Shown: positions 43,059 to 47,623 of the stretch, one piece after another
How positions within the stretch are numbered: the stretch's first letter is position 1
Layout: every line of letters starts with the position of its first letter
From: Aestuariivivens sediminicola
Lineage (GTDB): Bacteria; Bacteroidota; Bacteroidia; Flavobacteriales; Flavobacteriaceae
Length of the DNA stretch: 64,000 nucleotides
Direction: 5' to 3'
Assembly: GCF_022662015.1 (NCBI RefSeq)
Contig: NZ_JAKMCM010000001.1
Location: 1-64,000, forward strand
Made by a program: the position numbers and the translations under genes
Notes under the pieces: generated by a model
The model's database searches: none
What the model saw: only the letters and a program-made list of their open reading frames with translations
Told to the model about the DNA's origin: nothing

Positions 43059-44204
43059 TTAGTCAATTTTTTGATTGAAAAATTGCTTTATTCGAAACGA
43101 ATCCCTTAAACTTGTACACGGTTTTTCAAAATACGTATAAATTATTTGAGATCCGAAATAGGTTATCCCCAGATAGAACAGAACACAAGCTATGCGTTGC
43201 CATATTTTTAAAGCATTAAAATCCAATACTAATTGCATCAGATATAAAATAAAGGTGTAATGTATAAGATACATGGCATAAGAATACAGACTAATTCTTT
43301 TTATTAATTTAGCCCATGCACCGGATGGCCTCTTCAAAAAGTAGAACATTGGTAATGCAAGGCTTATTCCAATTGAATTTAAAGGCAAGTATAAAACGTT
43401 CCAGTAAAATGGGTAATTTTCTATGGAAATACCTAAATATGGAATGACAACCATCACAAGAAAAGATAAGCCTATACCGAAATAAAAAAGTATCTTTTTT
43501 TTAAGTTTGATTAGCATTCTAAATCTTTTAAGCAAAGCAACCAATATGAACCCATAAAAAATTGCATCTAATCTATATATAACAATAGCCTTTAAATTGG
43601 TGTTCCATATCGATAAAGACTGAAGTCCATTATTTACTGATGAGTTGTATTTTGCTTTAAAAACGAAAAAAAGTAGAACCAAAAAAACAGAAACACCTAA
43701 AAACAATGAATCCTTTTTGAAAAAATTATTAAGCAGTCTGAAAGATACAATTAAACAAAGTGGTGCCAGAAGATAAGCATATTCTTCCACCGATAGACTC
43801 CATGATTCTGGAAAAAAAAGAATATGAGAATCGTAAAAATTCTGAAGAAAAAATAAATATTTCCAGAGATTCGATGGCAATTCGTAACCAATCCAAAGGG
43901 CCACAAGGACATTCACAAAAAGCATCAAAAAGTAAAGCGGCAATGTTCTGAACCACCGTCTTACCCAAAAGTAAAGTACATCGAACACCTCAAACGAGGT
44001 TGAATTTATCAATCGTAAAAGAAGTCCACCTATCAGAAACCCACTGAGCACGAAGAATATTTCAACACCTTGTACGCCAAACAATTGAATACCTTGAATA
44101 TCGTATCCCTGAAAGATATAACTTGTATGAGATAGTAAGACCAAGGTAATGGCAATTGCCCTTACCAGATCTAGTCCATAAATTCTCTTTGATTTTTGAT
44201 TCAC
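43059..44204 (-). CDS. Acyltransferase-3 family membrane protein (copy A)
   Basis: A 381-residue integral membrane acyltransferase with about ten helices. The family motif is GLDLVRAIAITLVLLSH with R15 and catalytic-type H26, then GVEIFFVLSGFLIGGLLLR and ESWSLSVEEYAYLL. These proteins O-acylate sugars of LPS, capsule or other envelope glycans. It is the last gene of a three-gene unit, 2 bases after copy B, and clearly a paralogue of it. The base composition looks lower in GC than that of the core genes. Confidence 0.92.
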   Translation of the reverse strand: MNQKSKRIYGLDLVRAIAITLVLLSHTSYIFQGYDIQGIQLFGVQGVEIFFVLSGFLIGGLLLRLINSTSFEVFDVLYFWVRRWFRTLPLYFLMLFVNVLVALWIGYELPSNLWKYLFFLQNFYDSHILFFPESWSLSVEEYAYLLAPLCLIVSFRLLNNFFKKDSLFLGVSVFLVLLFFVFKAKYNSSVNNGLQSLSIWNTNLKAIVIYRLDAIFYGFILVALLKRFRMLIKLKKKILFYFGIGLSFLVMVVIPYLGISIENYPFYWNVLYLPLNSIGISLALPMFYFLKRPSGAWAKLIKRISLYSYAMYLIHYTFILYLMQLVLDFNALKIWQRIACVLFYLGITYFGSQIIYTYFEKPCTSLRDSFRIKQFFNQKID

Positions 44205-44206
44205 AA

Positions 44207-45334
44207 TTATCTCGGAAATTTTTTATCACGATAACTCATAATAGGTTTCTCAAAATAAAGATAAATGAAATTTGAAATTGTAAGAGTTAGAAATAAAAAA
44301 ATAATTAAAGCGCTAAATTTTGTCCATATTCCTAATCCAATCTTATCTGTAAGTAACTGCATATTTAATAGTATTAAAGAATAATTCACTAAATACATGG
44401 CATAAGATCGCGTACTGATAAATTCGATTATTGATTTTAAATATCTACTTCCTCGCAATTCTATAGCGTAAGGAAACATGAATAATAAGGATATCGAGAT
44501 TACTTGTAAGTATAAAAATGAATAAAACCATAAATAGGAATCAGGTCCTATGTTAAAAATAAACATACTTAAATGTAGAGCAACAAAAATGAGAAGGCCG
44601 AGCAAGAATAAAATAGTTTTGTATTTCTTTATTATCAAGGCATATGATTTAATTACAAAAACGGCAAGAAAACCCAAATAAATGCTATCCATCCTAAAAA
44701 TAACTACCTTTCGAAATGACGAACTCCAATCATAATAATTATTAACTACTGTATTGAAATTAAAATCCATCTTAAAAAATGAAAGCACCACTATAACACT
44801 CAGTGAGACCACAAAAAATACCTTTTTTCTCTTCTTGTTTTGAAATAATAACACCGCTGTAAAAAGAAGAAATGGCAATAGAATATAAGCGTATTCTTCT
44901 ATCGATAAACTCCAGGCCTCAGTAAAAAAATCGGGATGCCCCACCGTAAAATTCTGCAGAAAAAATAAGTAGCTCCCTAAATTCTTGGGCAAAGTTGTAT
45001 CCAGCAATAATGCAATAACAATATTTATAATTAAAATCAGGTAGTAATTAGGGAGGGTTCTAAGCCAGCGCCTTTTCCAAAACCGAAATAAATCAGACCA
45101 TTTTAGATGTTTATTATCATTTAATGTTTTAATTAGGATGCCTCCGATTAAATACCCGCTCAAAACAAAAAACAAATCAACTCCAACGGTTCCCATAAGT
45201 CTTAAACCATCTAATAATGTATTACTCATTTCGGGAAACAACAATAAAGAGCAATGGGATTGCAGGACGAGGCAAATTGCTAAAGCGCGTATACAATCTA
45301 AACCAAAAATGCGTGAATCCTTTTTTGGCATCAA
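44207..45334 (-). CDS. Acyltransferase-3 family membrane protein (copy B)
   Basis: A 375-residue paralogue of copy A: GLDCIRALAICLVLQSH (R16, H27), GVDLFFVLSGYLIGGILIK, EAWSLSIEEYAYILLPFL, and a C-terminal YFEKPIMSYRD also shared with copy A (YFEKPCTSLRD). It is probably an O-acyltransferase of an envelope glycan. Its ATG overlaps the end of the HTTM-like gene by 4 bases (translational coupling). Two divergent copies in a row suggest two positions or two acyl groups modified on one glycan. Confidence 0.92.
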   Translation of the reverse strand: MMPKKDSRIFGLDCIRALAICLVLQSHCSLLLFPEMSNTLLDGLRLMGTVGVDLFFVLSGYLIGGILIKTLNDNKHLKWSDLFRFWKRRWLRTLPNYYLILIINIVIALLLDTTLPKNLGSYLFFLQNFTVGHPDFFTEAWSLSIEEYAYILLPFLLFTAVLLFQNKKRKKVFFVVSLSVIVVLSFFKMDFNFNTVVNNYYDWSSSFRKVVIFRMDSIYLGFLAVFVIKSYALIIKKYKTILFLLGLLIFVALHLSMFIFNIGPDSYLWFYSFLYLQVISISLLFMFPYAIELRGSRYLKSIIEFISTRSYAMYLVNYSLILLNMQLLTDKIGLGIWTKFSALIIFLFLTLTISNFIYLYFEKPIMSYRDKKFPR

Positions 45335-46413
45335 TAAAATTCTAAGTATGAATTCGGACCATCCAGATACTTATTTATATGATCCTGTAATTTCTGATAT
45401 ACTCGTTTTTCCGGATATACCATGACATTTATGGTCTTTGCTGACCACTCATTAAAATCGATATAATATTGACCTTCCTGTTGTCTAATATTTTGTTTAA
45501 TATTCATAGGTAATCTGGATAAATCTTGCTCAACCTTAAAATGCAATCTACAATATTTTGGTTTTGCAGAAAAATAACTAAAGGACAGAAGATGATCGTA
45601 GTATCCAAAAAAATTCAAAATCGGAAAAACTATGGATAAAAAAAATACAATGAGGCTTTTTGGATGGTTTAACCTAAATAAAAGTTTAGATGAAAATGGT
45701 TTCTTGTAAAATAAATAGAATAGAGTAAATATATTAAACAATGTTAGAGGAAAAACGAGATAACCAAAATTACCAATAATAAAAGTAATTAGAATCATAA
45801 TATGCATAAAGGTTATCAGCCAAATAGCCCATTTCCTGGTCTTTGAAAAAATTAAAAGTATACCAAATGACGCCTCTAAAAATGGAACTGAATAGGTAAA
45901 AAGTTTCCTGTGAACTTCAGGGACGAAAGGTATTCTTCTGCTTAGGCCATTGGACCAAATTTCAAAAAATTGACTGTTCCATTTATGTATGCCACTCCAA
46001 AAATAAGTTCCAACAAAAATTAATAGAATACATTGCTTGGCTCTTTTTGGATCATTCGAAAACATGATAAGTGAAAAAACAACAAATACAATTTCAAAAT
46101 AAAAGGGTTGTATCCTATTTTGGTCAATTAAGGCCCAATAAATATATATGATCACAACTGGTAAACCAAACTTCCATTTCGGAATAAATAAGAACATCAG
46201 AAACGTCGAAAAAAATATAGCTATTAAGACAATATCTCCTATCAGATCTGGCACGGGCATTCTCTCGAAAAAGGGTATTAAAGGAAATAACCTATTAGAA
46301 AACCAAATTTTGGGAGCCATAATAAAGGGTAAAAAAAATGCTAAAAATGTAGCTACTCTTATTACAAAAAGCTCATCATTTTTTAAATCTTGAATAATGG
46401 TTTTAGAATTCAC
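45331..46413 (-). CDS. HTTM/DoxX-like multi-pass membrane protein
   Basis: A 360-residue protein with about eight membrane helices and a soluble C-terminal tail (~285-360). Features resembling HTTM (vitamin K gamma-carboxylase-like) and DoxX-type membrane proteins are ALIDQNRIQPFYFEIVF (94-110) and VGTYFWSGIHKWN (134-146). I cannot place it more precisely. It is the first gene of the unit with the two acyltransferases. It is divergent, with 55 bases between the starts, from the PHM-like gene. Confidence 0.6.
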   Translation of the reverse strand: MNSKTIIQDLKNDELFVIRVATFLAFFLPFIMAPKIWFSNRLFPLIPFFERMPVPDLIGDIVLIAIFFSTFLMFLFIPKWKFGLPVVIIYIYWALIDQNRIQPFYFEIVFVVFSLIMFSNDPKRAKQCILLIFVGTYFWSGIHKWNSQFFEIWSNGLSRRIPFVPEVHRKLFTYSVPFLEASFGILLIFSKTRKWAIWLITFMHIMILITFIIGNFGYLVFPLTLFNIFTLFYLFYKKPFSSKLLFRLNHPKSLIVFFLSIVFPILNFFGYYDHLLSFSYFSAKPKYCRLHFKVEQDLSRLPMNIKQNIRQQEGQYYIDFNEWSAKTINVMVYPEKRVYQKLQDHINKYLDGPNSYLEFY

Positions 46414-46468: not shown

Positions 46469-47623
46469 ATGACCTTAAAAAAATGGTTTAGATTAGCATT
46501 TATATTTTCTGCGATATGCAGTATAATTGGTCTAATATACTATTTTAATTTATCCAACAGGCATAAAGCAATTGTAAAAACGAGACTGTTACATTTTTTT
46601 CATATTATAGACTCCGATTGGTCAACCAAGCTGACACCCTTATCAATAGAAATTGAATCTCCGTCGTTTTTAATAGACGGTATATATAAATCTATGGAAG
46701 GTCCAAAGGCCGTACATTATTTTCAGGCGGACAAAGTTAGAAATGACTTATTATGGATGACAGGGTTTCAAGTTACGGCTCTATCACAAAAATCAAAAGA
46801 CAAAATTTCCAATGATTTCATTTGTCATACAAATATTAACTATATTGAACAAGAGCATCACGACCGTTGGAATTTAAAAGATCGTATAAATTTGCAATAT
46901 CCAAGATTAATCTCTTTATCTCACGGAATTGAGTCGATGAATTTTCCAGAAGGTTATGGATTTCCTTTTTTTGCCAATGAGAAGTTTTTTCTAATTACAC
47001 AATCCTTAAACCATAACATCAGCGATTCTATATTTCAATTAAAACACCATATTTCCATAAAATATAAAAGTGATAGACTTAAAACTTTGATGCCAAAAAC
47101 GGTCTACATGCAAATTCCTTTCTCCAAAGAACAAATTAAGGATAGTGAGATTGGTAAAATTGAAATGAATACTTGTATTCCTGTAGAAACAAAAAACCAT
47201 ACCTATACCGATGATCAGGGAAATTTACTTTCCGGGCATTGGAAAATCAATTTAGGAAAACAAGAATTTAAGTCAAATATTACGGACCAACTGTCCTTGA
47301 AGGATACTTTAAGAGTACATCAAATTACACCTCATTTACATCCTTTTGCAGAGACATTTGCCCTAAGGGATATAACAACTAATAACGTACTTTTCAATTG
47401 TAAGGTTATTAATCATAAGAATAAAATTGGATTGAGTAGAACACCTGCCTTTTCAAGTATAGAAGGAATTTTATTATATCCAGACCATGAATATGAACTC
47501 CTTCTTAGAACTAATAACACTACCAACGAAATTCAAGATATGATGGCGAGCATGTTCATGTTTTTTTATGATGACGAAATGGCTGATAAAATCAACAATT
47601 ACAAAACTAAGTCTGAAAATTGA
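46469..47623 (+). CDS. Membrane-anchored protein resembling copper type II monooxygenase (PHM-like)
   Basis: 384 residues: an N-terminal membrane anchor (about 8-27), then a soluble part outside the cytoplasm. By eye it follows peptidylglycine alpha-hydroxylating monooxygenase (PHM). FPEGYGFPFFANEKFFLITQ with LNHN (H182) matches the PHM stretch containing the third Cu-H ligand. LRVHQITPHLHPF (H289, H291) matches its HTHHLG. NEIQDMMASMFMFFYDDE (M358/M359) matches the DEMCNLYIMYY segment with the Cu-M methionine. H120 in ICHTNI would replace the first His pair, one His being a Cys. Spacings 120-182 and 291-358 are close to PHM's 108-172 and 244-314. No substrate is known. This family call is mine from motif comparison and needs a structure search. 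Confidence 0.55.
   Translation: MTLKKWFRLAFIFSAICSIIGLIYYFNLSNRHKAIVKTRLLHFFHIIDSDWSTKLTPLSIEIESPSFLIDGIYKSMEGPKAVHYFQADKVRNDLLWMTGFQVTALSQKSKDKISNDFICHTNINYIEQEHHDRWNLKDRINLQYPRLISLSHGIESMNFPEGYGFPFFANEKFFLITQSLNHNISDSIFQLKHHISIKYKSDRLKTLMPKTVYMQIPFSKEQIKDSEIGKIEMNTCIPVETKNHTYTDDQGNLLSGHWKINLGKQEFKSNITDQLSLKDTLRVHQITPHLHPFAETFALRDITTNNVLFNCKVINHKNKIGLSRTPAFSSIEGILLYPDHEYELLLRTNNTTNEIQDMMASMFMFFYDDEMADKINNYKTKSEN

Follow-up and report, generated by a model that had tools for sequence, protein, structure and literature searches.

A putatively membrane-anchored flavobacterial protein with a predicted PHM/DBH fold and a conserved cysteine at the position of a CuH histidine

The question raised by this locus is whether a flavobacterial gene encodes a copper protein of the PHM/DBH superfamily, and which of the two copper sites of these enzymes it has kept. 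The window, i.e. the whole stretch of 64,000 nucleotides that was analysed, contains an open reading frame of 384 amino acids with an ATG start (46469..47623, + strand), the product of which is predicted to be membrane-anchored and to adopt the double β-sandwich fold of PHM. The initial annotation had described a PHM-like copper monooxygenase fold on the basis of C119, H120, H182, H289, H291, M358 and M359, and all of these residues were found at those positions in the translation. A predicted N-terminal membrane anchor comprises residues 3-26 (46475..46546, + strand), which form a helix in the structural model and a hydrophobic stretch in the sequence. This helix precedes that of NRHKAIVKT, and after a short helix at 30-43 the model consists mostly of β strands. 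From this topology we infer that the protein is exported and anchored in the cell membrane via its N-terminal helix. No second copy of the gene was found in its own genome.

Searches of Pfam, NCBIfam and PDB sequences, with single sequences and with profiles, gave no match above chance for the protein or its family. With E values up to 1 allowed, the 52 members searched brought up 16 Pfam families, PF01082 and PF03712 not among them, and PF03712 had no match in the protein's own genome. A phage origin is without support, a scan of viral contigs having found no relative.

An AlphaFold2 (AF2) model, built from 52 family members and without metals, had a pLDDT of 91.1 and a pTM of 0.87. In a Foldseek search against 350,542 PDB chains, ranks 1-29 of the 50 matches listed were taken by 28 PHM entries and one DBH entry (4ZEL, rank 21), with E values of 1.6e-9 to 1.7e-7, a probability of 1.00, TMq of 0.32-0.45, 7-12% identity and rmsd of 7-12 Å. 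The rank after this block was an unrelated protein with an E value of 6.8e-6 and a probability of 0.98. The initial annotation had named the lack of a structural match to PHM/DBH as a refuting result, and the fold it proposed was instead supported, PHM and DBH standing ahead of all other PDB matches listed. The two-domain β-sandwich of the superfamily was found in a predicted, not a solved, structure, and the moderate TM-scores suggest a structural similarity of moderate degree. Among the matches listed, the top TM-score was that with 6ALA (TMt 0.56), described as a PHM variant crystallised in a closed form, in which His107, His242, His244 and citrate bind a single copper (PMC6123673); a resemblance of the model to closed PHM is therefore possible. 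Since PNGase F, DUF2961 and some capsid proteins are reported to share the double jelly-roll fold (PMC8812541), a control with the viral protein library BFVD was important. In this library Foldseek returned a jelly-roll background, with a best E value of 1.2e-6 and TM-scores of at most 0.32 among the matches listed.

The homologue set consisted of 56 loci, and 54 distinct proteins were left when the exact duplicates L023 and L025 had been dropped. The gene was present in 22 of 299 genomes sampled from the same taxonomic family, its own genome counted, and 34 more loci came from genome contigs. The record titles of these 34 named Flavobacteriaceae or its genera in 30 cases, only Flavobacteriales in one, only Bacteroidetes in one and other names in two, and they point to Flavobacteriaceae as the probable family of the window as well. 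The titles or bins of L039 (Bifidobacterium breve MAG) and L049 (Sphingobacterium thalpophilum MAG) are probably wrong, because the neighbours at these loci are those usual in Flavobacterium. The sole genome sampled from the same genus (G219) gave no match, so that presence is patchy even inside the genus. In a phylum-wide sample the family profile matched 4 of 395 genomes, three of them inside the taxonomic family, and outside this family the 384-aa protein type is rare.

Pairwise identity among the 54 homologues averaged 50%, with a minimum of 32%; four proteins (L095-L098) form a diverged subgroup with about 40% identity to the window protein. The initial annotation had named the loss of its residues among homologues as a refuting result, and C119, H120, H182, H289, H291, M358 and M359 were instead identical in 54/54. 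The same was true of N122 and of H193, C236, H244 and H284, the last four of which had escaped the initial annotation, as had H257 (identical in 53/54). Since these identities persist at such low overall identity, the candidate ligands are not there by chance. Altogether 41 columns are invariant, spread across both domains. C119 and C236 are the sole invariant cysteines of the family, and 28 of the 54 members have exactly two cysteines beyond residue 40. Cys236 (47174..47176, + strand) sits in a low-confidence stretch of the AF2 model (block means 56 and 58), and could be a disulfide partner of C119 or an extra ligand.

The closest relatives found outside the family were proteins of the L065/L067 type, from genomes G641 and G768. 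L065 comes from another taxonomic family and was matched at an E value of 3.1e-6 in the phylum-wide search (395 genomes); its comparison with the family profile covered 209 columns with a probability of 95.8 and an E value of 6.7e-9. L065 has HLHPF as in the window protein and a His opposite H182. Both L065 and a second protein of this type, L067 (an N-terminal fragment only), carry His-His at the Cys119-His120 of the family. L065 has no cysteine at all, and gaps are found at the positions of C236 and H257. Within its class, this type was present in no more than 2 of the 244 genomes sampled. The model of L065 was of low confidence (pLDDT 60), and its first 23 PDB matches, all PHM, lend minor support.

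Proteins of the same phylum with a PF03712 match show the same ligand order and profile homology to the family. Profile A3 was built from 23 of these bacterial proteins out of 25 loci; L081 and L086, for which the longer frame had been taken, were left out, although the HH, HxH and DEM motifs are present in their correct frames as well. The His-His pair, the third His, the HxH and the Met were invariant in 23/23 aligned sequences, HH and HxH having been partly required by the selection, whereas the window family has Cys-His. A stretch of about residues 208-255, which holds C236 and H244 in the window family, is missing or shorter in the PF03712 relatives. Against the PDB, the A3 profile matched DBH at 3.6e-17 and PHM at 3.2e-10.

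A profile of L065 with 19 family members (A4) matched A3 with a probability of 90.8, an E value of 1.2e-6 and a score of 54.8, while 200 column shuffles scored at most 27.1 and the reversed profile 20.1. With the same 19 members minus L065, the score was 43.7 and the probability 69.6. The family-only profile A1, which comprised 52 of the 54 members (the fragments L049 and L054 were left out), gave an intermediate result against A3, with a probability of 32 and a score of 36.6, and 100 shuffles at or below 27.2. L065 alone matched A3 weakly (probability 1.1), and A1 showed no significant match (probability 0.45) to A2, a profile of just four sequences. Of the profile comparisons tried, only that of the combined profile A4 was convincing. 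The resemblance to PHM, which the initial annotation had drawn from manual comparison, thereby gained further sequence support from the comparison with profiles of bacterial copper monooxygenases.

With relaxed settings, the A4-A3 alignment placed all six superfamily ligands opposite the C119/H120, H182, H289/H291 and M358 columns. In the A1-A3 alignment the HxH and Met agreed, and the first domain was shifted, so that residues 112/113 stood opposite the His pair and Q178 opposite His172; the ligand assignment in the first domain therefore rests on L065. In the second domain, His289-Leu-His291 (47333..47341, + strand) are the counterparts of the PHM CuM ligands His242/His244 by conservation and profile comparison. 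Met358-Met359 (47540..47545, + strand) contain the candidate counterpart of the CuM ligand Met314. Both methionines had been proposed for this role, and it was M358, not M359, that lay opposite Met314 in both profile alignments where this region was reached. In the first domain, Cys119-His120 (46823..46828, + strand) are candidate CuH ligands, placed via L065 opposite PHM His107-His108. His182 in LNHN (47012..47014, + strand) is the candidate counterpart of PHM His172, on the basis of conservation and the A4-A3 alignment. The description of a one-His CuH site consequently fits in part: the adjacent His-His pair is down to one His, but the site would hold H120, H182 and also Cys119.

The likeness to PHM (1PHM, 1OPM, 6ALA) thus comprises two β-sandwich domains, the CuM His-x-His plus Met, and residues that correspond to His172 and to the latter His of the CuH pair. 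The CuM residues H289, H291 and M358 are present in 54/54 and lie opposite the superfamily ligands in the profiles. In contrast, the His-His pair and third His of CuH were not found as such, Cys119-His120 being present in 54/54, and the family also differs from PHM in being bacterial and predicted to be membrane-anchored. With DBH (4ZEL) it shares the catalytic fold and ligand order; however, with 384 amino acids it is too short to include a DOMON or dimerisation domain, and Cys again stands at the first CuH His.

Three further PHM residues, Arg240, Asn316 and Tyr318, are presumably the holders of the peptide carboxylate. In PHM these Arg, Asn and Tyr residues stand at HxH -2, Met +2 and Met +4, whereas in the register of the profile alignments the family has mostly Ala/Thr at 287, Ala/Gly at 360 and mostly Met at 362. 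Since these residues are replaced, peptide amidation by the window protein appears unlikely, and this role was rejected as a candidate.

The best reading of these results is a copper protein of the PHM superfamily in which the CuM triad is intact and CuH would be a Cys-His-His site. In PHM and DBH, CuM (two His and one Met) is regarded as the site of oxygen binding and hydroxylation, and CuH (three His) as that of electron transfer (PMC4846438). Two PHM/DBH-fold β-sandwich domains would lie outside the cytoplasm, and by analogy the full CuM triad of H289, H291 and M358 in the second domain would bind oxygen and hydroxylate the substrate. In the first domain, H120 and H182 would be retained as CuH ligands, with C119 as the third. 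The substrate would be an envelope or small molecule and not a peptidyl-glycine. To the reading that the 384-aa protein works with two coppers and O2, as an oxygenase or redox enzyme of the PHM superfamily with a non-peptide substrate, we give about an even chance.

At 18 of the 56 loci, a SCO1/SenC match starts near the end of the family gene on the same strand; no SCO match adjoins the gene in the window, nor in 38/56 loci. PF02630 was confirmed in 6/6 scanned SCO genes (four distinct counted loci and two duplicates or re-fetches), and 17 of the 18 adjacent SCO matches combine CPxICPxM with DFYH or DYYH in a distal position. With stops excluded, the frames of the family gene and the SCO gene share 8 bases in both L101 and L102, and in L103 they are separated by 2 bases. 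Elsewhere in the genome that contains the window, four SCO1-SenC matches were found, of which two are strong and two weak. SCO proteins are reported to bind copper and, in some bacteria, to reduce copper-site cysteines (PMC6696091), an activity that would suit a Cys-containing copper site. In some relatives, a SCO protein from what may be the same operon would help to charge the protein with copper or to maintain its cysteines in the reduced state. The fuller proposal of a Cys-His-His thiolate copper site for electron transfer, dedicated SCO maturation and a copper oxygenase acting on a flavobacterial envelope molecule is possible but tentative.

The SCO neighbours also suit the main rival, in which the protein is a copper-binding non-enzyme, i.e. 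a periplasmic carrier, store or assembly factor of PHM fold that partners SCO like PCuAC for cytochrome oxidase. Some bacteria are reported to use SCO and PCuAC together to assemble CuA (PMC6696091), and the CuH site of the family is altered. Crystals of rat PHM H107A, H108A and H172A without citrate are described as having no CuH copper, and no peptide was reported in soaked H108A and H172A crystals (PMC6123673). In view of these mutants, the altered site may mean a non-enzyme. However, 41 invariant columns over both domains are above expectation for a His/Met copper carrier, more than half of the loci (38/56) have no SCO match, and no oxidase subunit was recognised by eye among the listed neighbours, not all of which were scanned. 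The protein is also distinct from PCuAC itself, for which the motif H(M)X10MX21HXM and a cupredoxin-like fold are given (PMC6696091), in having a predicted PHM-like fold and no Pfam family above cut-off. On balance, we consider a copper-binding non-enzyme somewhat doubtful.

The two invariant cysteines could instead form a C119-C236 disulfide, and the protein would then be a CuM-only enzyme of the PHM superfamily, in which the disulfide has a structural role and CuH copper is absent. The invariance of both C119 and C236, the 28/54 members with exactly two Cys past residue 40 and the complete lack of Cys in L065 agree with this reading, but the invariance of H120, H182 and H193 (54/54) would be left without obvious reason, which makes a CuM-only enzyme unlikely. 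A resemblance in fold only, i.e. a carbohydrate-binding or PNGase F-like jelly-roll protein with His/Met serving another purpose such as zinc binding, is very improbable: the Foldseek background is full of jelly-roll proteins and PHM and PNGase F are placed in one Pfam clan (PMC8812541), but the PHM/DBH matches stand apart from this background in E value, probability and TM-score, and the profile homology exceeds 200 shuffles with the HxH and Met ligands aligned.

If the fuller proposal of a thiolate Cys-His-His copper oxygenase is true, the family would show a case in nature of His replaced by Cys where a monooxygenase with two coppers transfers electrons. How electrons pass between the two distant coppers in PHM/DBH, and whether these close into one site, is described as still debated (PMC6123673, PMC4846438), and a natural family with Cys fixed at the electron-transfer site at about 50% mean identity would be a ready-made variant for this debate. 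It would also be a copper protein missing from the family libraries searched, and a possible SCO client besides cytochrome oxidase. The family was not described in the titles and abstract openings among the papers listed on bacterial PHM relatives or Pfam names, in which few subscription papers were covered.

In the window, the gene is preceded by three genes on the - strand. A MauE/DoxX-type membrane protein (45331..46413) is divergent from it at a distance of 55 bases, followed by a membrane acyltransferase (PF01757, 44207..45334) and a second membrane acyltransferase (PF01757 by Pfam, 43059..44204). Homologues of the MauE/DoxX-type protein were found in the flanks of 8 of the 56 loci and those of the first acyltransferase in 45, mostly upstream and divergent, some flanks being too short to tell. 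Arrangements like that of the tandem acyltransferases and MauE/DoxX at 43059-46413 (- strand) recur often in the loci whose neighbours were listed, with aconitase on one side and a MoxR ATPase on the other. The diverged L095-L098 are located elsewhere, adjoining genes that by eye resemble ParA/ParB and not acyltransferases, with no SCO match in the nearest flanks, and the acyltransferase/MauE/aconitase/MoxR synteny was not leaned on as a functional clue. Among the PF03712 proteins of the phylum, L057, L058, L060 and L061 are single chains of about 600 amino acids that combine a redoxin, a CxxCH (seen by eye) and PF03712; L059 also matches PF03712 and is shorter than these four.
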